Below, piece by piece: positions 202-45,810 of a stretch of DNA of 64,000 nucleotides. The stretch covers positions 186,001 to 250,000 of the forward strand of contig CAMXCT020000397.1 in the NCBI GenBank assembly GCA_947184155.2. Reading direction: 5' to 3'. The position numbers and the translations under genes are program-made. Position 1 is the first letter of the stretch. Every line of letters starts with the position of its first letter. The notes below the pieces were generated by a model. It was given only the letters and a program-made list of their open reading frames with translations, ran no database searches and had not been told where the DNA came from. The DNA comes from Cladocopium goreaui. Taxonomy: Eukaryota > Sar > Dinophyceae > Suessiales > Symbiodiniaceae.

Positions 202-663
202 GTAAATATTCAACTGCGTCATGAGTTTAGCGTTGAGATTGAACCTTACAAGAGGAAGTTCATTGCTGATGCTCACACTGCCAAGGGTGAAAAACCAACA
301 TTTCATCTTTTCAGCGATGTTCGTATTTTTGCAGATGGCAAAGGGTATTGCGATACCTGTGGTTGTGTCCACAATGCGCCAGCTGAAGTTGATATCCTAT
401 TTGTTGGTCCATCATGCAAAAGCATCAGTTTGGAGAATGCCGACCGGTCTTCCTACAAGCACTGCTACAGTACGGGTGAAGGAAGTAGTGGCTACACATA
501 CCAACATGGAGTAAAAGGTGCTGTTTCTTCTACAAATCCTGCACTTTTGTTCTTCGAGAACGTATTGGGAGTGATGTTTGCAGTGAACAAGAAACCATCC
601 CCCATGGAGGCCACGGGATTCAGATTCATATCAAATTCAGGCTTCAGATGTTGTATTACAGTG
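202..663 (+). CDS. C5-cytosine DNA methyltransferase, exon with motifs IV and VI
   Basis: Frame +1 is open for 154 codons. It contains HEFSVEIEPYKRKFI, a cysteine-bearing stretch (GYCDTCGCVHN) and VDILFVGPSCKSIS. The last is the motif IV loop with the presumed nucleophile Cys at codon 415-417; PSCK replaces the common PCQ. FFENVLGV follows at about 550-570 and is motif VI (ENV, Glu that protonates the cytosine). S-adenosylmethionine-dependent transfer to cytosine C5 in the nucleus is the family role. Motif I (FxGxG) must lie in upstream exons. The exon ends at GTG 661-663 before a GT donor (GTATAT). The 294-bp intron 664-957 ends in CTGCAG. The FSVE..P.KR.F and GPSCKS signatures resemble protist and bacterial-type methyltransferases rather than maintenance DNMT1, by eye. 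Confidence 0.85.
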
Positions 664-957
664 GTATATATATATAGTATTTATCTATATGCTTATAAAT
701 ACAAAAGGGAATGTTCTTAATGCACATAGAATATGTGAATGGATATTGGGGAATAATCAAGATATGAAAATGGTGCTATGATTTCTTCGGTCTTATGTGT
801 GTAGCTAAAGTAGGAAGGTATTGTATTTTTTGTCTGTATTCTGTATCTCTTTATCTCTCTATCATTCGATATCTGTTATTTTGTAGATATTTATGTATAA
901 AAGGGATTGTTTTTAATGCACATAGAATATGGTCATATTCCCTTCCTCTCCCTGCAG

Positions 958-2172
958 GTCATGACCAAAGACCTGGGAGAACTTGGCTATGTTGTTGAAC
1001 ATTCCAAAATTGATGCACAAGACTACCTCTTACCTCAAAGACGGAATCGGGTGTATGCATTAGCGGACATCAATGCTGGTCAATGTTCCCAATCCTTTGC
1101 GCAAAAAATGAAAGCAACCATGGAGTCTATGGCTTCTGATGTGTTGTTACCGTTTGATTCTGTGTTTGACACTACTTTGCCACATCAGCAGCTGGAGGGG
1201 CGACAATATGACAAACTGCAGGAAGCTTTGGAAAAAGCATGTTTACAAGCAAACTGCCAAAATGTGTTCCTAGACACGTCAACTTCGTCAACAAGAGAGT
1301 GTGAAAGTGCAACCAATGTCCTTACATGTGTGCGACCTACGCACAAAATTTACAGCAATCAGCTTCAACGTTTTGTGACCATACAAGAGATGTGGGCAGC
1401 ACAAGGACTGTTCAAATGCAACTTTGAGAACCAAGAGGCAGTTCAAAGCATGTGGGAACAAGCTTCAAAAGCACAAGACCTTGCTGGTAACGCTTTCGCT
1501 TCTACATGTATGCAGGCCAAAATCATCGCGTCTCTGGTACATGGTCAGGGATGGATCAATCTCGCAGGATCACATGGAAACGCTACAAACGCTCTGCAAA
1601 CTGGTTTCGAAAGTGGTACTACTCCAAATGACTCAAGCTCTCAACCTGATTTCTTCGAAACACCAGATGCTAAAGGGACTTTGTCTACAGCATCATCGAG
1701 TGAACGGGGTATCAAGCGTAAGAGTAGCTCTGATGATGATGATGTACGAGATGAAAGTGTTTACAGCAGTCCACCAGCAGAAGCATCAGCATCATCCCGA
1801 CCACAGAAACGCATCAGTCTATCAAGTGAATCGATAGTAGCCTCATCACAACTGTCAAAACGCATCAGTTCATCAGAGGAAGCCTTGGTGCCATTGCCAC
1901 CTCCCAAACGCAGATGTGTAGGGAAAACAAAGCAGTCAGATGCGATGATAGTACCTCAACATATCAAAGATTTGATGTCATTACGAGAATCCAATAGAAA
2001 GAAAGGACCAGGACGTCCAAAAAAACAAGCACCTCAAGATTGTGAGGCTATTGTCACTGCTTCCAACCAAGATCCACCAGGAAAAAAAGGAAATGATTCT
2101 GAGAAGGCGAAGACTGCACGAGATGGGAAACAATCTGTGATCAGCATTTGGGACAAGATGAAGTTGTTTGAA
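958..2172 (+). CDS. C5-cytosine DNA methyltransferase, C-terminal motifs VIII-X plus AT-hook linker
   Basis: The exon opens with VMTKDLGELGYVVEHSK, then QDYLLPQRRNRVY (motif VIII, QRR at 1036-1044), LQRFVTIQEMWAAQG (motif IX) and LAGNAFASTCMQAKIIASL (motif X, GN at 1486-1491). Together with the preceding exon this covers motifs IV-X, a full catalytic C-terminus. After about 1560 the sequence becomes Ser-rich and basic, with PPKRR and KRISLSSES runs (possible nuclear localisation signals), and then GPGRPKK at 2005-2025, a textbook AT-hook that binds the minor groove of AT-rich DNA. The frame stays open into the next intron up to 2244. The chosen end (GAA|GAAACT, GA donor) is the phase-0 site that joins to exon 3; a different donor a few codons later is possible. 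Confidence 0.8.
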
Positions 2173-2189
2173 GAAACTCGACTGCCAAT

Positions 2190-2222
<33 letters not shown>

Positions 2223-2354
2223 GTATATATATATATATATATAACATATGTCACCCTTATGATGTAGATATAGCTTTCCAACCTATTTTCCATGCTGTGT
2301 TAATGTGTATGAGCCAACAATAGTATTGAACCCATCACCTTTGTGATGGGATGG

Positions 2355-2854
2355 GGTGGTTGGGTGGGAAGGGTGGGGTGGAAGGTGGAAGATGGAAGGT
2401 CGAAGATGGACCTCAGAAATGTTGCAAATAGCTTGCTAAACAGAATGGCATCGGGTGCTACATGGCAATTTATACCATATGGTGGGGTAGGAATACGGAG
2501 CATGGAACCATATATATATATATTTATGATTTCTCTTTTTGTAGAGGTGATTTAGGATGCACTTAGAATATGGAATGGCATAGTGAGTGGTTGGGTGGGA
2601 AGGGTCGGGTGGAAGGTGGAAGATGGAAGGTCGAAGATGAACATCAGAAATGTTGCAAATAGCTTGCATATACGATGCTGAACATTGGAAATGCTGCAAA
2701 TAGCTTGCAACACATAATGGTACCGGGTGCTACATGGTAATCTATACCATTTGGTGGGGCAGGAATACGGAACATGGAACCATGTATATATATATATGAT
2801 TTTTCTTTCTGTAGAGGTGATTTGAGATGCACTTAGAATATGGAATGGCATAGA
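2355..2854. repeat. Tandem duplication inside the methyltransferase/transposase intron
   Basis: Two diverged copies, about 2355-2585 and 2589-2854. Each runs from GGTTGGGTGGGAAGGGT through GAAATGTTGCAAATAGCTTG and GGAACCAT(AT)n to ATGCACTTAGAATATGG-AATGGCATAG. Copy 2 carries an extra internal duplication of the TTGCAAATAGCTTGC piece. The unit lies wholly in the intron that separates the methyltransferase from the transposase exons. Confidence 0.85.
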
Positions 2855-2878
2855 GACATATTTGCCATCCCATCTCAG

Positions 2879-3471
2879 GAGTATGAGAGTGTTTGCGCAG
2901 ATCCATCGGTGAAGTACAAAGAGAAGCATTTCCTCTCTACTGCCAGAAGGAAAGGTGCATATCAGGGGTGTTTCACGGACAGTCATTGGGGAGGACATCG
3001 AAAAAAACAAAACTGGGATTTGTTGGTCAAATACGCTCCAAAGATTGCAAAAAAGCATTCTGAAGTTCCTAACTCACTGCGTGATGTTCTGAACATTACC
3101 ACAAAGAAGTGGAATGGAGGGAAATTCAGCAAAAGTGATGGGCTGCACGTGATACCACCAAGCCTAGCCCTAGCACTGGATACGATCATCATGGACAGAT
3201 TAGCGGCTGGCGAAGAAGTTTCTTACGATTTCGTTGAATCAACGTTGAAACTTTTGGTGAAACTTTGGAATGAAAAGATTGAAGAGTTGCAGGCCGATGT
3301 TCAGGAAACAGTACAAAAGAAAATCTTGCAAGCACAAAACGCAATCGCTGAGTCTGAAGATGTTGGAGATGATGTTGCGCGAATGGCAAAGGATGATGAA
3401 ATGACAGCATTGAGCAAGTTGTTAGAGACACTCCAGCCCTGCAACATCAGCACCCAACCTACTGCACTGGG
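2879..3471 (+). CDS. Transposase N-terminal region of the fusion (helical, basic)
   Basis: Open frame (first possible Met at 2840; the exon itself is taken from GAG at 2879 after CATCTCAG). It encodes EYESVCADPSVKYKEKHFL, then a basic region (ARRKGAYQGCF, WGGHRKKQNWDLLVKYA) and a helical segment with IPPSLALALDTIIMDRLAAG and ESTLKLLVKLWNEKIEEL. The later part resembles the helix-turn-helix lead-in of pogo/Tc1-like transposases (regular L/I spacing followed by the R.LGI.TSSVTKQS segment in the next exon). It ends in an acidic, Ala-rich stretch before a GA donor (GG|GAACCT at 3472). Reading through instead gives a stop at 3482-3484. The role in DNA binding is inference. Confidence 0.6.
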
Positions 3472-3647
3472 GAACCTTGCCTGATGATTTGCAACTATGT
3501 TTTTTTGGAAAAAAAGAAACAATGGATGAATGAATATATATGTATATTTAATTATATATATGGGCTTACATACACACACATATATATATATTGTCGAGAA
3601 CAATATTCTAAGTGCATCGTTTTGTGTGCACACTCACATGGTTTACA

Positions 3648-3715
3648 CCATCACGACAATGATCATCTCGACTGCCCAGGTCCATCACGACAATGATCAT
3701 CTCGACTGCCCAGGT
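3648..3715 (+). repeat. 34-bp direct duplication carrying a 3' splice site
   Basis: CCATCACGACAATGATCATC... repeats exactly at 3648 and 3682 and each copy ends in CTGCCCAGGT, so the acceptor CCCAG|G exists twice, 34 bp apart. The downstream copy gives the phase that joins exon 3 to the transposase frame. Confidence 0.85.
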
Positions 3716-4189
3716 CTTGTGCATCTCGAGTTTGCAACCGATTGGGGATCCGAACAAGTTCGGTGACCAAACAATCAAAACACTTGGACTACGATCATCC
3801 CATGGTTGCCAATGTGAGGGCCTTTGTAACCTTGTGTGTGGAGCAACATCGGATAGATGGTAGACTGGTTGCAAACTTTGACCAGGTGTGGACAATGCAG
3901 TATGAAGGAGCTCGTCGTGTCCTGTACAAACATGAAAGTAAACGTGGTTCATTCTTTGAAAAGAACAATACACCTTCAGTCACCAAAGCATTGAACAGTA
4001 TCAGGAAAGCACTTTCTCTTGAATGTGATACTGGTTCAACAAAAAAGATGTTTGCCAACCAGTCAGACTCAACGCCGCTGGAAATTTGAACCCGGTGGAC
4101 TACGCTCGCGTACCAAGAACTACGACGACGTTAAGTTGGGCCGATGGTGATTTGGGTAGAGCTTTTGTTACTATGGCACCCGGAACAGC
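3714..4189 (+). pseudogene. DDE transposase core, first catalytic Asp; one frameshift
   Basis: It starts after CCCAG at 3713 with SCASRVCNRLGIRTSSVTKQS, a helix-turn-helix-like lead. LVANFDQVWTMQYEGARRVL follows, the first DDE-motif strand with Asp at 3880-3882. Frame +1 runs to a TGA at 4087-4089. The expected continuation (VDYARVPRTTTTLSWADGDLG, FVTMAPGT) is in the frame one base earlier (codons start at 4086). So one base is missing, or two are extra, between about 4035 and 4085; the six-A run at 4039-4044 is the likeliest place. This is either a real inactivating mutation or a sequencing/assembly homopolymer error. The exon end GC|GTACAA (GT donor at 4190) restores phase with the next exon. 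Confidence 0.75.
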
Positions 4190-4445
4190 GTACAAAACTC
4201 AGTTGTTTCTTATTGTTTTTCGTTCCTATTACTAATATATAATACATATGGTACATACAAAACTTATCAAAAGAATATACATATATACATAAATCAGCTT
4301 GAAAGGAATATACATATGTATGGTTACTTATATATATATATATTGTTTCTGGTTGCCAGATCATATAGACCAAAATATTCTATGTGCATTGTTTTTGCAT
4401 ATATTTGAACTTTATTCACCATGGAAACCAAAGTCGCTTTGCAAG

Positions 4446-4753
4446 GTCAGAAAAGACGATAGACGCAATGAATCGAGAATTGGGCCATGTGTTACACATC
4501 TCAACTCGTCACTCAGGGTCCACTCACTACTGGAATGCTGCAACTTTGGGTGAATACCTTGAATTTTTGGGGAGCGAACTACGTGCAAAAAGGATGAAAC
4601 ACGGACTCGATGCATCTTCAAAAGCGTTGATACTCATGGACAAAGCAACGGTTCATCAAAGCAGCACTTTCGAAAAGCTTAGAGATCGGTTTCAACGTGC
4701 TCACAACTGCATTCTGCTTCACGGTGCTTCCTACCAATATGTTGCAATCCCAG
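4446..4753 (+). CDS. DDE transposase core, second catalytic Asp
   Basis: Encodes SEKTIDAMNRELGHVLHIS, HYWNAATLGEYLEFLGSEL and KALILMDKATVHQS. The last is the second DDE strand (family form: hydrophobics-D-N/K-x-x-x-H), Asp at 4639-4641. It then reaches a strand ending YQYVAIPG. The exon ends at 4753 before GAGGCA (GA donor) and joins, one base plus two, to the third catalytic segment. The preceding intron 4190-4445 is 256 bp and carries one inverted ATGCACWTAGAATATG motif near its 3' end (4374-4389). Confidence 0.75.
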
Positions 4754-4926
4754 GAGGCAAATACAAGTTTGAAAGCTATTTTTGTTTGTTGTAGAAGTTT
4801 GTGTATACAGACACATATACATATATCAAAAGATTCAGGTGTGTACTATTGATATATTGGTTCCATATATATATATAGTGAAAAAGAAAATGTTCAGAAA
4901 TTCAACATATATAACATGTTCATCAG

Positions 4927-5092
4927 GCTGGGGAGCTTGTGGTGGACCTTGTGATGGTTTCCATCAGTGGTATCATGGATTGAGACGCGCGGCGCAACGG
5001 ATCACGGTGGGCATGGGGAAAACTCTACGATCAACTTTGGCTGAGATGTCGATCAGTGTGGATGGCAATCCGCGGTTTGAGTTGCATGTGCA
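4927..5092 (+). CDS. DDE transposase core, third acidic residue
   Basis: Begins after ATCAG at 4926 and continues IPG into WGACGGPCDGFHQWYHGLRR; the Asp at 4953-4955 is the expected third acidic residue. Spacing from the second Asp, counted across the intron, is 46 residues, so the catalytic triad reads DD46D. Pogo/Tigger-type enzymes also end in D but with shorter spacing, so exact family placement is open. Alpha-helical LRRAAQRITVGMGKTLRST follows. The end is at 5092 with a GA donor (CA|GATTTT), which joins in phase to exon 7. Confidence 0.7.
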
Positions 5093-5108
5093 GATTTTTT
5101 GGTTTACC

Positions 5109-5416
5109 TAATTTTCATTAGTTTCTGTTTGTAAAATATTATTTTGGGATGCACATAGAATATGAAAGAAAAGACATACCCACGGTATCAAATAAGCAGT
5201 GACTGTCCGAACATTTTGCACTACATCCAGGTTGACCACCGGGGGGAATTTGAGAGCCGAGCTAATTTTCATTAGTTTATGATTGTAAAAGATGATTTTG
5301 AGATGCACTTAGAATATGAAAGAGAAAATCTATTCACAATATCAAATAAGCAGTGACTGTCCAAGCATTTCGCACTACACCCAGGTTGACTACCGAAGGG
5401 AGTTTGAGAGCCGATG
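5109..5416 (+). repeat. 154-bp tandem duplication covering intron end plus exon start
   Basis: TAATTTTCATTAGTTT... at 5109 recurs at 5263 (period 154). Both copies contain the ATGCACWTAGAATATG motif (5149, 5303), the tract ending CACTACAYCCAG|GTTGACYACCG and the first about 30 bases of the following exon (ending GAGAGCCGA). Only the second copy continues as coding sequence. Confidence 0.85.
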
Positions 5417-6118
5417 CATTCGCTCTTCAATCCCTCAAAAACTATCAAGGTGGGAAGCTGATTCAATGGGCATGGGTCAGCCGCGGTTTGACCAGCATGG
5501 AGCAAATAGCTGAATGGCATCATGATGGCAACATGGAAGCAGCAAAGGCATCTTTTGAACAAACAAGGGGTGCAATGGCAACTTTGTATAGTTTGGATGA
5601 AATTCCTTCTGTTGAACCTACTGGTGAAGAAGATATCGTTGCTGCAGCTGAAACCACAACTTTGAAGGGGGAGTTGCATCAGTTCTGGGCAATCAACGAT
5701 TACGAAAACCCAACAGCTGAGCCAATTGCACTACCATCGTGGTTTCAGCTTCCAATTGACAATGTTCTGTTGACGTGGAAACGAGAACTTTCTGTTTGGG
5801 AGGAACGTATAGCCAAACGTAAAGCAAATGGTTTTGGTTCGTTGGCTCCCAAAATGAACGAAGCATATCAGCAATGGGTGTCCAATCCAACAAGGGTACT
5901 TGTCCTAGACAAAGCAAGGAAGGCACAGGTGATGCAACCAGGAAAAAAGTCTCAAGCACAGTTGAAAAAAACATGCCTGATGCTGGTGATTCATCCTTCG
6001 TTGGATCCAGCTGACCTTTGGGTTAAGTCGGGCAACGGAAAACAGTGGTCTCTTCATCTCTTGGAGGGTGAAGCTATTCCTCAAGTTGAAGTACCAGATG
6101 ATGTGGATCACTTTTCAG
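5385..6118 (+). CDS. C-terminal region of the transposase fusion, long exon
   Basis: About 245 codons open in frame +1 (LTTEGSLRADAFALQSLKNY ... GEAIPQVEVPDDVDHFSG). Trp-rich helices (KLIQWAWVSRGLTSMEQIAE, FWAINDY, LTWKRELSVWEERIAKRK, YQQWVS) suggest a folded domain outside the DDE core. No known domain was recognised. The start G at 5385 completes the CAG codon begun in exon 6. The end at 6118 precedes GATCTG (GA donor) and joins to exon 8 as TTT TCA G+GA CTT. The reading frame continues past the donor to 6276, but that extension (Cys/His-rich, TA-rich DNA) looks like intron. Confidence 0.6.
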
Positions 6119-6180
6119 GATCTGTGTTGTTGGTTTGTGTCGGGAGTTGTTTTTTTCCAACACATACACCACATCAACAG

Positions 6181-6420
6181 TGTGTATTGAACTATATTCT
6201 ATGTGCATCAAGCTGGTGCACACAGGACTTGACATGGAACATAATGCGGTGCATACACAAACAAATACTGTGGTAGGATTTGTTTGGTTTGAATATGTAT
6301 TAACGTATATGTATATTATATATATATATACACGTGTGTGTGTGTGTGTATTGAATTATATTCTATGTGCATCAAAATTGTGTACGCAGGACTTGGTGTG
6401 GAGCATGATGCGGTGCATAC
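6181..6420 (+). repeat. 164-bp-period duplication covering intron end plus exon start
   Basis: TGTGTATTGAAYTATATTCT.. at 6181 recurs at 6345. Each copy has the inverted ATGCACATAGAATATA motif, an acceptor (CACAG|GACTTG and CGCAG|GACTTG) and the first about 30 exon bases (GACTTGRYRTGGARCATRAT). The TA/TG-rich segment between the two lies in the same intron. Confidence 0.85.
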
Positions 6421-6928
6421 TCTCGACTTGGAAGAGGACAAGCAGATCGAAATGGAGCATGGTGAACCAATTGAGTACGGCGACTTTTCCGGTGATGAAC
6501 TGGATTCAGAGCTACACAGTGGGTTTCTCTTTGTCAAAGACTCAGACTCAGAGCAAGAGGACGAGCATGATGACAAGACAGCAGAACCCAAAGAGGACGA
6601 GAATGGCAAGAAATCACGCAATGCAGCACTTGAGCACCGACCAGAATATCAGGAACTCAAAGCGGCGGGGGTGACTGTCAGGCCTGAAGGATGTAGTTTA
6701 GGTATTCATCCAGGAAACATGGTGTGGCGATCTTACGGTGGAGGGTCTTCCCATCATGGTAGATCTTTTGGACCATCAAGTGGTCGCACTGCAAAGCAGG
6801 CATTACTCAGGGTGATTGAGCTCATGTTGCAGGGTCACTTGGAGCTTCACCCCAAGGATAGATTGGCAAAACTTCAGCTTCAAAAGGTTCAAACTGCACG
6901 AGCAGCAGAGCCGGAGCACAAAGACTAA
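6390..6928 (+). CDS. Acidic C-terminal exon of the methyltransferase-transposase fusion
   Basis: Starts after ACGCAG at 6389 and ends at TAA 6926-6928, about 179 codons. The first half is strongly acidic (LDLEEDKQIEMEHGEP, KDSDSEQEDEHDDK). It continues with EHRPEYQELKAAGVTVRPEG, a Gly/Ser-rich WRSYGGGSSHHGRSFGPSSG and a helical RTAKQALLRVIELMLQGHL tail. The mix of WRS and a helix near the end resembles a small DNA- or chromatin-binding tail, but no family is recognised. Whether 6928 is the true gene end is supported only by the lack of a good downstream continuation. Confidence 0.6.
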
Positions 6929-7276
6929 TCCCGAGCGTGCATGAAAGGGGAAAAAGAGCACTGATCAACGATTTGCTTGGAGAGTCTTGAGATTTGGATA
7001 ATATATATATATTATATATATATACCTCTATATTATATTTATACGCCCATATTCTATGTGGATAAATATTCTATGTGGATGACATTCCAAATTATGGTTT
7101 TGCTATGTAATTTCCATATTCTTAGTGGTACGTTAAAATTTTTAATATTCTATGTGCTAGCCGGTTACTATATATAGCTTAGAATTTATCTTAGTTTTAC
7201 TATATGTGTATATCTTTCACGCAGGAACTACGTGTGTCCAGTTGCGATGTGGGACACTTTCCCACCGAAAGCTGAG
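6929..7276. other. AT-rich spacer after the fusion gene
   Basis: Holds TATATA runs and three partial copies of the ATATTCTATGTG motif, and ends at the acceptor-like GCTGAG before the first exon of the paralogous block. The right end of the mobile element is probably here, but no inverted terminal repeat partner is visible because the left end is outside the window. Confidence 0.4.
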
Positions 7277-37875: not shown

Positions 37876-38813
37876 GGATCAAATCTGACGCTTTGTCAAA
37901 CGTTGCAAGAGCAAGGCGTTGTGGGAAAGGCTGTAACACTTTCTTGCACTTCTGTTCCTACAGATGTGTTCGCTGCATGGCATTATATCCAACGATTGCT
38001 AGTCCCTGACGAAAACCTATTACTAGAGGGGGGTGACGAGGATAGCAGGTATTTCCTCTGGAGAGCTTTTGCAACTTCCCAGAAGTCTTGAACGGCTTGC
38101 TGTTGGCAATCCATTCAACCAGAGCTTGCGAAAAGTGAAATTTCCAAGCGGTCTTCAAAGCTTGACCCTTGACATTTGGCGAGAATTTCAGCCAAAGCCT
38201 GGAAGGAGTGGACTTTCCACGTGATCTTCAAAGCTTGACATTTGGCAGTAATTTCAACCAAAGCCTGGAAGGAGTTGACTTTCCACGTGATCTTCGAAGC
38301 TTGACATTTGGCGGTAATTTCAGCCAAAGTCTGGAAGGAGTTGACTTTCCACGTGATCTTCAAAGCTTGACATTTGGCAGTAATTTTAATCAAAGCCTAG
38401 AAGGAGTGGAACTTCCACGTGTTCTTCGAAGCTTGAAATTTAGCGAGAATTTCAACCAAAGCCTGGAAGGAGTGGAACTTCCACGTGATCTTCGAAGCTT
38501 GACATTTGGCGGTAATTTCAGCCAAAGTCTGGAAGGAGTGGTCTTTCCACGTGATCTTCAAAGCTTGACATTTGGCAGTAATTTTAATCAAAGCCTAGAA
38601 GGAGTGGAACTTCCACGTGTTCTTCGAAGCTTGAAATTTAGCGAGAATTTCAACCAAAGCCTGGAAGGAGTGGAACTTCCACGTGATCTTCGAAGCTTGA
38701 ATTTTGGCGAACATTTCAACCAAAGCCTGGAAGGAGTAGTCCTGCCAAGTAGTTTGCGCACTTTCTCGTGCAGCTCCATACGTGTAAGCTGCTGTGGTCC
38801 GAAGTTTAGATAG
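37876..38813 (+). CDS. FNIP-type leucine-rich repeat protein fragment
   Basis: Nine consecutive 22-residue (66-bp) units in the frame 38169-38813, pattern SLxFGxNFNQSLEGVxxPxxLR. It matches the FNIP/LRR repeat known from Dictyostelium and abundant in protists, used for protein binding. The cap is VLPSSLRTFSCSSI, stop at 38811. A further degenerate unit upstream (LPRSLERLAVGNPFNQSLRK, 38075-38160) is in another frame: TTGACCC is inserted next to TTGACAT near 38164. Upstream, TLSCTSVPTDVFAAWHYIQR (from 37939) resembles the start of such a protein. Units 3-5 and 6-8 repeat as a 198-bp higher-order block. The frameshift and lack of an obvious promoter suggest a decaying or partial gene. Confidence 0.75.
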
Positions 38814-38984
38814 ATATGAGTTGTTTGCATTTTGTGTATTTGAGAAATGTGTGGTTGTTTGGATGACATGGTCGAGCTGTCACATCTCAAACATGAAAGG
38901 CTTCTTGATTCACCATCACCCTGAAACGTTCATGCAGAGACATTCAAACGGACACATGGCCATGTCACTAGCTTGCTTGAAGCC

Positions 38985-39414
38985 CCGCTTGCAACCGCGC
39001 CAGGCCAACCAGTGCCACATCATCGTCAATGGTGAGTGCTGGGTTGGCCAATTCGCCGTGTGGCGGTTTCCCGTGATGCAACCGTCAGACATCCAGGTTT
39101 GGGAAGCCTGCCCTCTTCCCGAGCACGCCTGGTTTGTCCCTGACAACTGTTGCATCTGCACGACAATCGGCTCCGGCTGTGTTTCACTAGGGGGTGGCGA
39201 TTACGATGGGGACCTTTTGATGTTCACATCCAATCCCATCCTCCTTAAGTTCCTTGATTGCACGCCCAGTGGCACGGAAGTGCCCGAACTCAATGCTGCT
39301 CGAGCGCATGTAGAGGGTCTTGTGGAGAAATCCAGCCCGATCCGGTTGCGCAGCATAATGCAATATCGAGAGCATTGCTTGCATGTTCCAACGCCGCAAA
39401 TCCGCTTAGTCTAA
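38985..39414 (+). CDS. Eukaryotic RNA-dependent RNA polymerase (RDR/QDE-1 type) catalytic fragment
   Basis: An open frame from 38794 to TAA 39412-39414. The recognisable part runs from about 38985: CHIIVNGECWVGQFAVWRFP, VMQPSDIQVWEACPLPE, then IGSGCVSLGGGDYDGDLLMF and TSNPILLKFLDCTPSGTEVP. In the family the order is G.V.V.RNP...PGDI....A......, G......GGD[LY]DGD.....W...L; DxDGD (codons at about 39203-39217) binds the catalytic metal. Such enzymes make double-stranded RNA in RNA silencing. Only the C-terminal catalytic part is visible. After the stop the same frame goes on with KKDAVSKDQFESAYRASWDN to 39510, directly after an A8 run, so the stop may be a decay or assembly mark. Missing N-terminal exons and a location among Cys-rich exons suggest a translocated fragment or nested gene. 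Confidence 0.75.
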
Positions 39415-42979: not shown

Positions 42980-45810
42980 CCAGGCGCTGGCAAAGGGCTG
43001 CCGCTGCAGGGCAACGTGTTTGTGGTGACCTGGGAAGACAGCGGCAAAGCGGTAAAGGCCCACAGACGGGTTTTGTGTCGTGATGGGCCGTGCTTCGCGC
43101 ACGTTTTGAAACCCTCTAAATGGAGTATGGCGACATGGCCAGGCGCTGGCAAAGGGCTGCCGCTGCAGGGCAACGTGTTCGCGGCGGTGACCTGGGAAGG
43201 CAGCGGCAAAGCGGTAAAGGCCCACAGAGGGGTTTTGTGTCGTGATGGGCCGTGCTTCGCGCACGTTTTGAAACCCTCTAAATGGAGTATGGCGACATGG
43301 CCAGGCGCTGGCAAAGGGCTGCCGCTGCAGGGCAACGTGTTCGCGGTGACCTGGGAAGGCAGTGGCAAAGCGGTAAAGGCCCACAGACGGGTTTTGTGTC
43401 GTGATGGGCCGTGCTTCGCGCACGTTTTGAAACCCTCTAAATGGAGTATGGCGACATTGCCAGGCGCTGGCACAGGGCTGCCGCTGCAGGGCAACGTGTT
43501 CGCGGTGACCTGGGAAGGCAGTGGCAAAGCGGTAAAGGCCCACAGACGGGTTTTGTGTCGTGATGGGCCGTGCTTCGCGCACGTTTTGAAACCCTCTAAA
43601 TGGAGTATGGCGACTGGCCAGGCGCTGGCAAAGGACTGCTGCTGCAGGGCAACGTGTTCGCGGTGACCTGGGAAGGCAGTGGCAAAGCGGTAAAGGCCCA
43701 CAGAGGGGTTTTGTGTCGTGATGGGCCGTGCTTCGCGCACGTTTTGAAACCCTCTAAATGGAGTATGGCGACTGGCCAGGCGCTGGCAAAGGACTGCTGC
43801 TGCAGGGCAACGTGTTCGCAGTGACCTGGGAAGGCAGTGGCAAAGCGGTAAAGGCCCACAGACGGGTTTTGTGTCGTGATGGGCCGTGCTTCGCGCACGT
43901 TTTGAAACCCTCTAAATGGAGTATGGCGACTGGCCAGGCGCTGGCAAAGGACTGCTGCTGCAGGGCAACGTGTTCGCGGTGACCTGGGAAGCCAGTGGCA
44001 AAGCGGTAAAGGCCCACAGAGGGGTTTTGTGTCCTGATGGACCGTGCTTCGCGCACGTTTTGAAACCCTCTAAATGGAGTATGGCGACATGGACAGGCGC
44101 TGGCAAAGGGCTGCCGCTGCAGGGCAACGTGTTCGCGGTGACCTGGGAAGGCAGTGGCAAAGCGGTAAAGGCCCACAGAGGGGTTTTGTGTCGTGATGGG
44201 CCGTGCTTCGCGCACGTTTTGAAACCCTCTAAATGGAGTCTGGCGACTGGCCAGTGCCAGGCGCTGGCAAAGGACTGCTGCTGCAGGGCAACATAATCGC
44301 AGTGACTTGGGAAAGCAGTGGCAAAGCGGGAAAGGTCCACAGAGGGGTTTTGTGTCGTGATGGGCCGTGCTTCGCGCACGTTTTGAAACCCTCTAAATGG
44401 AGTATGGCGACTGGCCAGGCGCTGGCAAAGGACTGCTGCTGCAGGGCAACATGTTCGCAGTGACTTGGGAAAGCAGTGGCAAAGCGGTAAAGGCCCACAG
44501 AGGGGTTTTGTGTCGTGATGGGCCGTGCTTCGCGCACGTTTTGAAACCCTCTAAATGGAGTATGGCGACTGGCCAGGCGCTGGCAAAGACTGCCGCTGCA
44601 GGGCAACGTGTTTGCGGTGACCTGGGAAGGCAGTGGCAAAGCGGTAAAGGCCCACAGACGGGTTTTGTGTCGTGATGGGCCGTGCTTCGCGCACGTTTTG
44701 AAACCCTCTAAATGGAGCATGGCGACTGGCCAGGCGCTGGCAAAGGACTGCTGCTGCAGGGCAACGTGTTCGCGGTGACCTGGGAAGGCAGTGGCAAAGC
44801 GGTAAAGGCCCACAGACGGGTTGGCGACTGGCCAGGCGCTGGCAAAGGACTGCTGCAGGGCAACGTGTTCGCAGTGACTTGGGAAAGCAGTGGCAAAGCG
44901 GTAAAGGCCCACAGAGGGGTTTTGTGTCGTGATGGGCCGTGCTTCGCGCACGTTTTGAAACCCTCTAAATGGAGTATGGCGACATGGCCAGGCGCTGGCA
45001 AAGCAGGGCAACGTGTTTGCGGTGACCTGGGAAGGCAGTGGCAAAGCGGTAAAGGCCCACAGAGGGGTTTTGTGTCGTGATGGGCCGTGCTTCGCGCACG
45101 TTTTGAAACCCTCTAAATGGAGTATGGCGACTGGCCAGGCGCTGGCAAAGGACTGCTACTGCAGGGCAACGTGTTCGCAGTGACTTGGGAAAGCAGTGGC
45201 AAAGCGGTAAAGGCCCACAGAGGGGTTTTGTGTCGTGATGGGCCGTGCTTCGCGCACGTTTTGAAACCCTCTAAATGGAGTATGGCGACATGGCCAGGCG
45301 CTGGCAAAGGACTGCCGCTGCAGGGCAACGTGTTCGCGGTGACCTGGGAAGGCAGTGGCAAAGCGGTAAAGGCCCACAGAGGGGTTTTGTGTCGTGATGG
45401 GCCGTGCTTCGCGCACGTTTTGAAACCCTCTAAATGGAGTATGGCGACTGGCCAGGCGCTGGCAAAGGACTGCTGCTGCAGGGCAACGTGTTCGCAGTGA
45501 CCTGGGAAGGCCCACAGAGGGGTTTTGTGTCCTGATGGACCGTGCTTCGCGCACGTTTTGAAACCCTCTATATAAATGGATTATGGCGACATGGCCGGTG
45601 ACCTGGGAAGGCAGTGGCAAAGCGGTAAAGGCCCACACGGGGGTTTTGTGTCCTGATGGCCCGTGCTTCGCGCAGGTTGTGAAACCCTCTAAATGGATGT
45701 AGTGGAGTATGGCGATATGGCGACATGGCCAAGCGCTGGCAAAGGGCTTCCGCTGCAGGGCAACGTGTTTGCGGTGACTTGGGAAGGCAGTGGCAAAGGC
45801 TTTGGTGTCT
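42980..45810. repeat. 158-162-bp satellite, about 18 units
   Basis: Unit CCAGGCGCTGGCAAAGG ... AACGTGTTCGCGGTGACC ... CGTGCTTCGCGCACGTTTTG ... AAATGGAGTATGGCGAC. Starts include 42980, 43139, 43301, 43460, 43618, 43776 and 43934. Two sub-types alternate: GACATGGCC with GGGCTGCCGCTG (159 or 162 bp) and GACTGGCC with GGACTGCTGCTG (158 bp). Truncated units occur near 44830, 45005 and 45500-45700. It is far more GC-rich than its surroundings. Both strands are widely open (ORFs up to 278 codons on the minus strand), but 158-bp units shift frame from copy to copy, so conserved coding is unlikely. Confidence 0.95.

Follow-up and report, generated by a model that had tools for sequence, protein, structure and literature searches.

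In SETMAR (Metnase), a methylating enzyme and a mariner-type transposase (Hsmar1) are described as parts of one protein (PMC6326780). The dinoflagellate mobile elements SymbioLINE-Dnmt and SymbioDIRS-Dnmt3 are reported to carry a C5-cytosine methyltransferase (PMC5890265), as is Mariner-1_OLpv, a mariner-kind DNA transposon (PMC3627910), and TET/JBP fungal DNA transposons are described with an enzyme that acts on 5-methylcytosine (PMC12730594). Here, we analyzed a 64,000-nucleotide stretch of the dinoflagellate Cladocopium goreaui (contig CAMXCT020000397.1, positions 186,001 to 250,000; hereafter the window), in which the first 6.9 kb hold one + strand gene, its 5' part upstream of the window, that appears to join a C5-cytosine methyltransferase to a DDE/D transposase in a single polypeptide. 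Searches of open-licence papers listed no single-chain C5 methyltransferase/DDE transposase, which is not proof that there is none in print.

The spliced model of the gene (Table 1) has eight exons that can be joined in phase, giving 1475 residues up to the first stop (6926–6928). Because its splice sites were picked to keep the phase and to agree with relatives, it is a model and not transcript data. The reading as one polypeptide, not two neighbouring genes, is supported at the sequence level because a second protein, P0033, holds both halves in one open frame. P0033 (872 aa; a single uninterrupted frame on a 5,303-nt ENA contig, genomic or transcript) was found with a 1050-residue query, with residues 345–720 scored, as the single match among 4315 candidates. 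Its frame opens within the methyltransferase (LFFWENV...) and runs on through motifs VIII, IX and X, the linker, the N-terminal transposase part and the three catalytic Asp motifs, D1, D2 and D3. By BLASTP, the window model is 45% identical to P0033 over 243 residues in the methyltransferase and 40% identical over 606 residues in the linker and transposase. Counted by part (identical/aligned), the methyltransferase gives 108/218, the linker 24/93, the N-terminal part up to D1 102/254 and the core 110/216; judged by these identities, both enzyme halves are conserved and the linker far less. At the doubtful junction, 2172/2879, KMKLFE/EYESV of the window aligns unbroken to KMKLFKEFEAL of P0033. 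The fused reading frame is present, as sequence, in both the window model and P0033. An earlier note on this DNA had proposed a single protein, to be doubted if the two halves were never adjacent in other genomic copies; the alignment of P0033 through the junction in one frame supports the proposal, and P0033 is one copy that contradicts the doubt. For exon 1, an alternative in-phase end at 663 was dropped in favor of 609, because P0033 is without the 18 additional residues.

None of the remaining 32 database proteins reaches into the methyltransferase. P0014 and P0017 extend to the N-terminal transposase part and begin there; their models may be truncated, or these copies may lack the methyltransferase. 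Of 7990 candidates scored against the full-length fusion (1478 residues), none matched at E 0.01; we do not take this as absence, because the query, long and in part of low complexity, was represented by no more than 100 words. The linker of the window model includes an AT-hook-like stretch. As no AT-hook core (GRP) was seen in the P0033 linker, the AT-hook lacks support as a conserved part, and the earlier idea of insertion directed to AT-rich DNA is weakened.

For the methyltransferase half, joined exons 1–2 (with the longer version of exon 1 as query) match PF00145 at 9.8e-10 (38.8 bits, compared to a cut-off of 22) and TIGR00675 at 1.8e-13, yet under the cut-off of that family. The methyltransferase piece of P0033 alone, a partial domain, scores 18.2 bits against PF00145, under the cut-off. 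The motifs that we take to be IV, VI, VIII, IX and X are all present, and motif I, for S-adenosylmethionine binding, would fall upstream of the window. The top PDB sequence by phmmer is DNMT5 of Cryptococcus (7r76; 2.6e-7 for the whole sequence, 0.0064 for the best single stretch). This resemblance is confined to the first part of the methyltransferase domain and is gone with a two-sequence profile of the window and P0033, which ranks HhaI above Cryptococcus DNMT5; descent of this half from DNMT5, judged from sequence, is only a lead. No SNF2 match was found in the joined exons or in P0033, and the transposase occupies that C-terminal place.

The transposase core has 32 database protein matches (best, 3.0e-73), one of which, P0026, is the window's own. 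Two relatives add support for a dinoflagellate origin: P0017 from Durusdinium trenchii, whose database name, malate dehydrogenase 2, does not fit, and P0020 from Symbiodinium sp. CCMP2592, to which the C-terminal end of exon 8 is identical at 46 of 104 residues. Together they make up a dinoflagellate family with a D-D-D triad and 46–51 residues between D2 and D3; all three Asp motifs were seen in 19/34 sequences and a partial set in 15/34. In the window model the spacing is 47 residues, not 46 as the earlier note had it, and D3 has Cys where Asn precedes Asp (GGPCDGFHQ). The methyltransferase motifs, AT-hook-like stretch, triad and acidic tail (24 of its 61 residues are Asp or Glu) otherwise lie where that note had placed them, on the same strand.

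Searches of Pfam, NCBIfam and PDB sequences left the transposase half unnamed. With Pfam DDE families, the joined exons had no match at E 10; at E 1, 29 of the 33 database proteins had none. Structure models of two relatives, P0014 and P0033, have Mos1, Sleeping Beauty and SETMAR as their best matches; the N-terminal part is helical in the P0014 model. These fold matches are moderate (no Foldseek E-value below 1e-3, a low-confidence D3 stretch, and models of relatives in place of the window protein). The P0033 model was not used for the methyltransferase half, since blocks of residues 1–240 have a predicted local distance difference test score (pLDDT) of 61 or less. The Foldseek top 10, the VIA top 40 and the Foldseek top 8 for the second model are all DDE/D transposases and integrases; for VIA-align, absence from its list is no evidence against a family. 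On the triad and these moderate matches, the assignment of the second half as a DDE/D transposase, proposed beforehand from motifs, is supported. Searches for a viral or bacterial home gave 1, 14 and 3 pattern matches in viral contigs and 16 in prokaryote species genomes, with zero confirmed relatives in either, so such a home is unsupported at that sensitivity.

Relatives vary in how the same stretch is read. Several of P0001–P0017 read through exons 4–6 free of introns, as does P0033 through exons 2–6, and the intron-free P0004, P0007, P0010 and P0013 lie on contigs of 165–406 kb, too long for transcripts. P0019 and P0021 have the same exon ends as the window. Judged from these sequences, subfamilies seem to vary in their intron content.

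In order, the seven complete introns have GC, GA, GA, GT, GC, GT and GA as donors, and the acceptors are AG/G in 7/7 as well as in the partial first intron. In a published survey, GA donors are given as 17–24% of introns in 5/7 species (0.1% or none in the other two) and AGG acceptors as 80–97% in six (56.5% in the seventh) (PMC10666404). As modelled, the introns are of dinoflagellate type. They also share a 14-mer, TATTCTATGTGCAT, of which the window holds 15 copies on either strand with up to 2 mismatches, compared to 1.41 expected. Thirteen of these lie within 720–7159, where six of the seven introns hold ten copies and the 3' flank holds three, in both orientations; the exons and intron 5 have no copy. 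The chance of ten independently placed copies all falling in introns is ~2e-5, a figure to be read with the caveat that several sit in duplicated segments and are non-independent. We set aside an RNA splicing signal, considering that the 14-mer occurs in both orientations and beyond introns. The 14-mer could be a site for the transposase, be left over from inserted intron elements or have another origin, and the 3' flank (7050–7159) is possibly a subterminal repeat region. Partial tandem or near-tandem duplications span the 3' splice site at 3648–3715, 5108–5414 and 6180–6420, leaving relic acceptors within the intron; the latter two extend ~30 nt into the following exon. Further intron-internal repeats were observed at 700–735/896–931 and 2401–2534/2673–2806.

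Several other explanations of this locus were considered. That two adjacent genes are present, a methyltransferase ending near 2172 and a transposase starting at an in-frame ATG, is very improbable. The exon 3 frame is indeed open back to 2837; the ATG lies at 2840, and upstream of it is a pyrimidine-rich AG. But the frame of exon 2 does not stop near 2172 and continues via a TA-repeat to a stop at 2242–2244, and the 14-mer of the six introns is found twice within 2173–2878. Given P0033, which is unbroken through the junction with both halves in one frame, we rejected the two-gene reading. It is also improbable, if less so, that the second half is another RNase H-fold protein and no transposase: the best Foldseek and VIA rows are all DDE/D transposases and integrases, and the D-D-D motifs with DKAxxH and PND resemble those of DDE/D enzymes. 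Somewhat unlikely is a decayed copy, in which a true fusion would have become, at this locus, a pseudogene that no longer works. The frame requires one net one-base shift and Cys replaces Asn ahead of D3, as decay might produce; once the shift is allowed, however, there are zero in-frame stops in 1475 codons, all junctions close at dinoflagellate-type splice sites, and the shift falls within a run of six A (4041–4046), a homopolymer being a place of assembly error. That every junction could be closed in phase save at one frameshift had been claimed before, and the eight-exon model agrees.

The reading that best explains the locus as a whole is a single-protein gene working as a self-methylating transposase, to which we give a probability of about 0.55. 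The protein would carry, in order, a C5-cytosine methyltransferase, a basic, low-complexity linker, a predicted helical N-terminal domain, a putative catalytic core of the Tc1/mariner-like DDE/D type, an acidic tail and a conserved C-terminal domain. The transposase half would recognize and synapse the ends of its own element, and the tethered methyltransferase would methylate cytosines at those ends or in the freshly inserted copy. Inserted DNA might then gain CG methylation of the kind reported over most of the Symbiodinium genome (PMC5890265), or methylation of the ends might weaken transposase binding and so limit transposition and copy number. We infer catalysis, end recognition, mobility and self-methylation alike, with the activity of both halves predicted from motifs. 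Consistent with mobility, the family has many divergent members and clusters of tens of sequences (76 for P0026, 77 for P0006), and translated intron sequence occurs in the P0026 cluster representative, as expected if intron-bearing DNA gets copied. Weighing against mobility, repeated assemblies may account for the cluster members, ends of the element were not observed (its left end would lie outside the window), and exon-rich DNMT genes of Symbiodinium are described as the more highly expressed ones (PMC5890265). A SETMAR-like domesticated host gene is a possible, tentatively held alternative: a methyltransferase gene would have captured a mariner-like transposase as a sequence-specific DNA-binding module that steers methylation to dispersed remnants left by the parent element. 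Its exon-rich structure is like that reported for the more highly expressed Dnmt5, Dnmt6 and Dnmt2 of Symbiodinium (PMC5890265), and SETMAR offers a precedent (PMC6326780, PMC8327481). The fusion is also kept at 40–45% identity, and the SETMAR transposase domain appears in both the Foldseek and VIA lists. Domestication is less easily squared with the triad present here, SETMAR having lost its third Asp, or with the many divergent members and large clusters, which resemble a proliferating family (these counts being database-wide, not per genome). More doubtful is a new dinoflagellate DDE/D superfamily whose autonomous members would bear the methyltransferase in the transposase chain, with excision, insertion and methylation coupled, TATTCTATGTGCAT as the binding site, and introns that are, or derive from, small mobilised elements.

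Table 1. Features of the methyltransferase–transposase gene, in window positions (slashes mark exon/intron boundaries).
Feature	Position	Strand	Basis or remark
Exon 1, methyltransferase to motif VI	202..609	+	Acceptor CAG/G at 201/202; GC donor after 609; end from P0033 alignment
Motif IV GPSCKS, putative catalytic Cys	406..423	+	Motif; PF00145 match of joined exons 1–2
Motif VI FENV	553..564	+	Aligned to ENV of P0033
Exon 2, motifs VIII, IX, X and low-complexity linker	958..2172	+	PF00145 1.6e-6 alone (tested as 958–2169)
Motif VIII QRRNRV	1036..1053	+	Motif
Motif IX RFVTIQE	1369..1389	+	Motif
Motif X DLAGNAF	1477..1497	+	Motif
AT-hook-like KKGPGRPKK	1999..2025	+	Motif
Intron 2, doubtful junction	2173..2878	+	GA donor, CAG/G acceptor; unbroken P0033 alignment
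Exon 3, N-terminal predicted helical transposase part	2879..3471	+	P0033 identity; helices in P0014 model
Exon 4, D1 NFDQVW (3874–3891) and frameshift in A6 run (4041–4046)	3714..4189	+	Boundaries match P0021
Exon 5, D2 LMDKATVH (4633–4656)	4446..4756	+	GC donor; exon end shared with P0019
Exon 6, D3 GGPCDGFHQ (4941–4967)	4927..5080	+	Motif
Exon 7, region past catalytic core	5385..6118	+	Alignment with P0020, P0030; GA donor
Exon 8, acidic tail (6431–6613), C-terminal domain, stop	6390..6928	+	C-terminal identity to P0020
Seven complete introns	610–957, 2173–2878, 3472–3713, 4190–4445, 4757–4926, 5081–5384, 6119–6389	+	Splice model
Three TATTCTATGTGCAT copies, 3' flank	7050..7159	+	14-mer search

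Elsewhere in the window, FNIP/leucine-rich repeats with 66-bp units (38166–38737; PF05725, 2.1e-58) are directly followed by a fragment that matches a cellular-type RNA-dependent RNA polymerase (38788–39411; PF05183, 1.1e-7; GGGDYDGD). A 158-bp tandem array at 42980–45511 has several long open frames on both strands. Rfam gave zero matches at gathering scores across the window.

Cytosine methylation is the usual host weapon against transposons. If the self-methylating transposase holds, a cut-and-paste element would turn the host's own mark to its use, one that retrotransposons of the same lineage may exploit by a different route. This could bear on the near-complete CG methylation of Symbiodinium genomes, which is reported over most of the genome (PMC5890265). 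As the transposase family matches no Pfam DDE model, Pfam-based surveys would log such genes as methyltransferases without a further domain, and more fusions may hide among exon-rich dinoflagellate DNMTs.

The known systems differ from the window gene in distinct ways. DNMT5a/b are described with a C-terminal SNF2 helicase where the window gene would have its transposase, and dinoflagellate DNMT5c as having a long N-terminal part that carries no annotation (PMC9998398); dinoflagellate DNMT5 is elsewhere described as having lost SNF2 (PMC12344493). SymbioLINE-Dnmt and SymbioDIRS-Dnmt3 are described as retrotransposons that have intronless genes and reverse transcriptase, whereas the window gene is intron-rich with a predicted DDE/D transposase (PMC5890265). 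In the viral Mariner-1_OLpv, methyltransferase, endonuclease and transposase are reported as separate proteins, in contrast to one chain in a dinoflagellate (PMC3627910). The enzyme of the TET/JBP fungal transposons is a dioxygenase, of opposite chemistry, described as often encoded by a separate gene near the transposase gene (PMC12730594). The fold matches of the window's relatives include the transposase domain of SETMAR. SETMAR, however, pairs its transposase with a SET histone methylase, methylates protein, is a domesticated primate gene and has a D2–D3 spacing of ~34; the window gene would pair a DNA cytosine methyltransferase with a transposase in a dinoflagellate, with the triad present and a spacing of ~47. 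Were the window gene a domesticated one, it would parallel SETMAR, with DNA as its methylation substrate.

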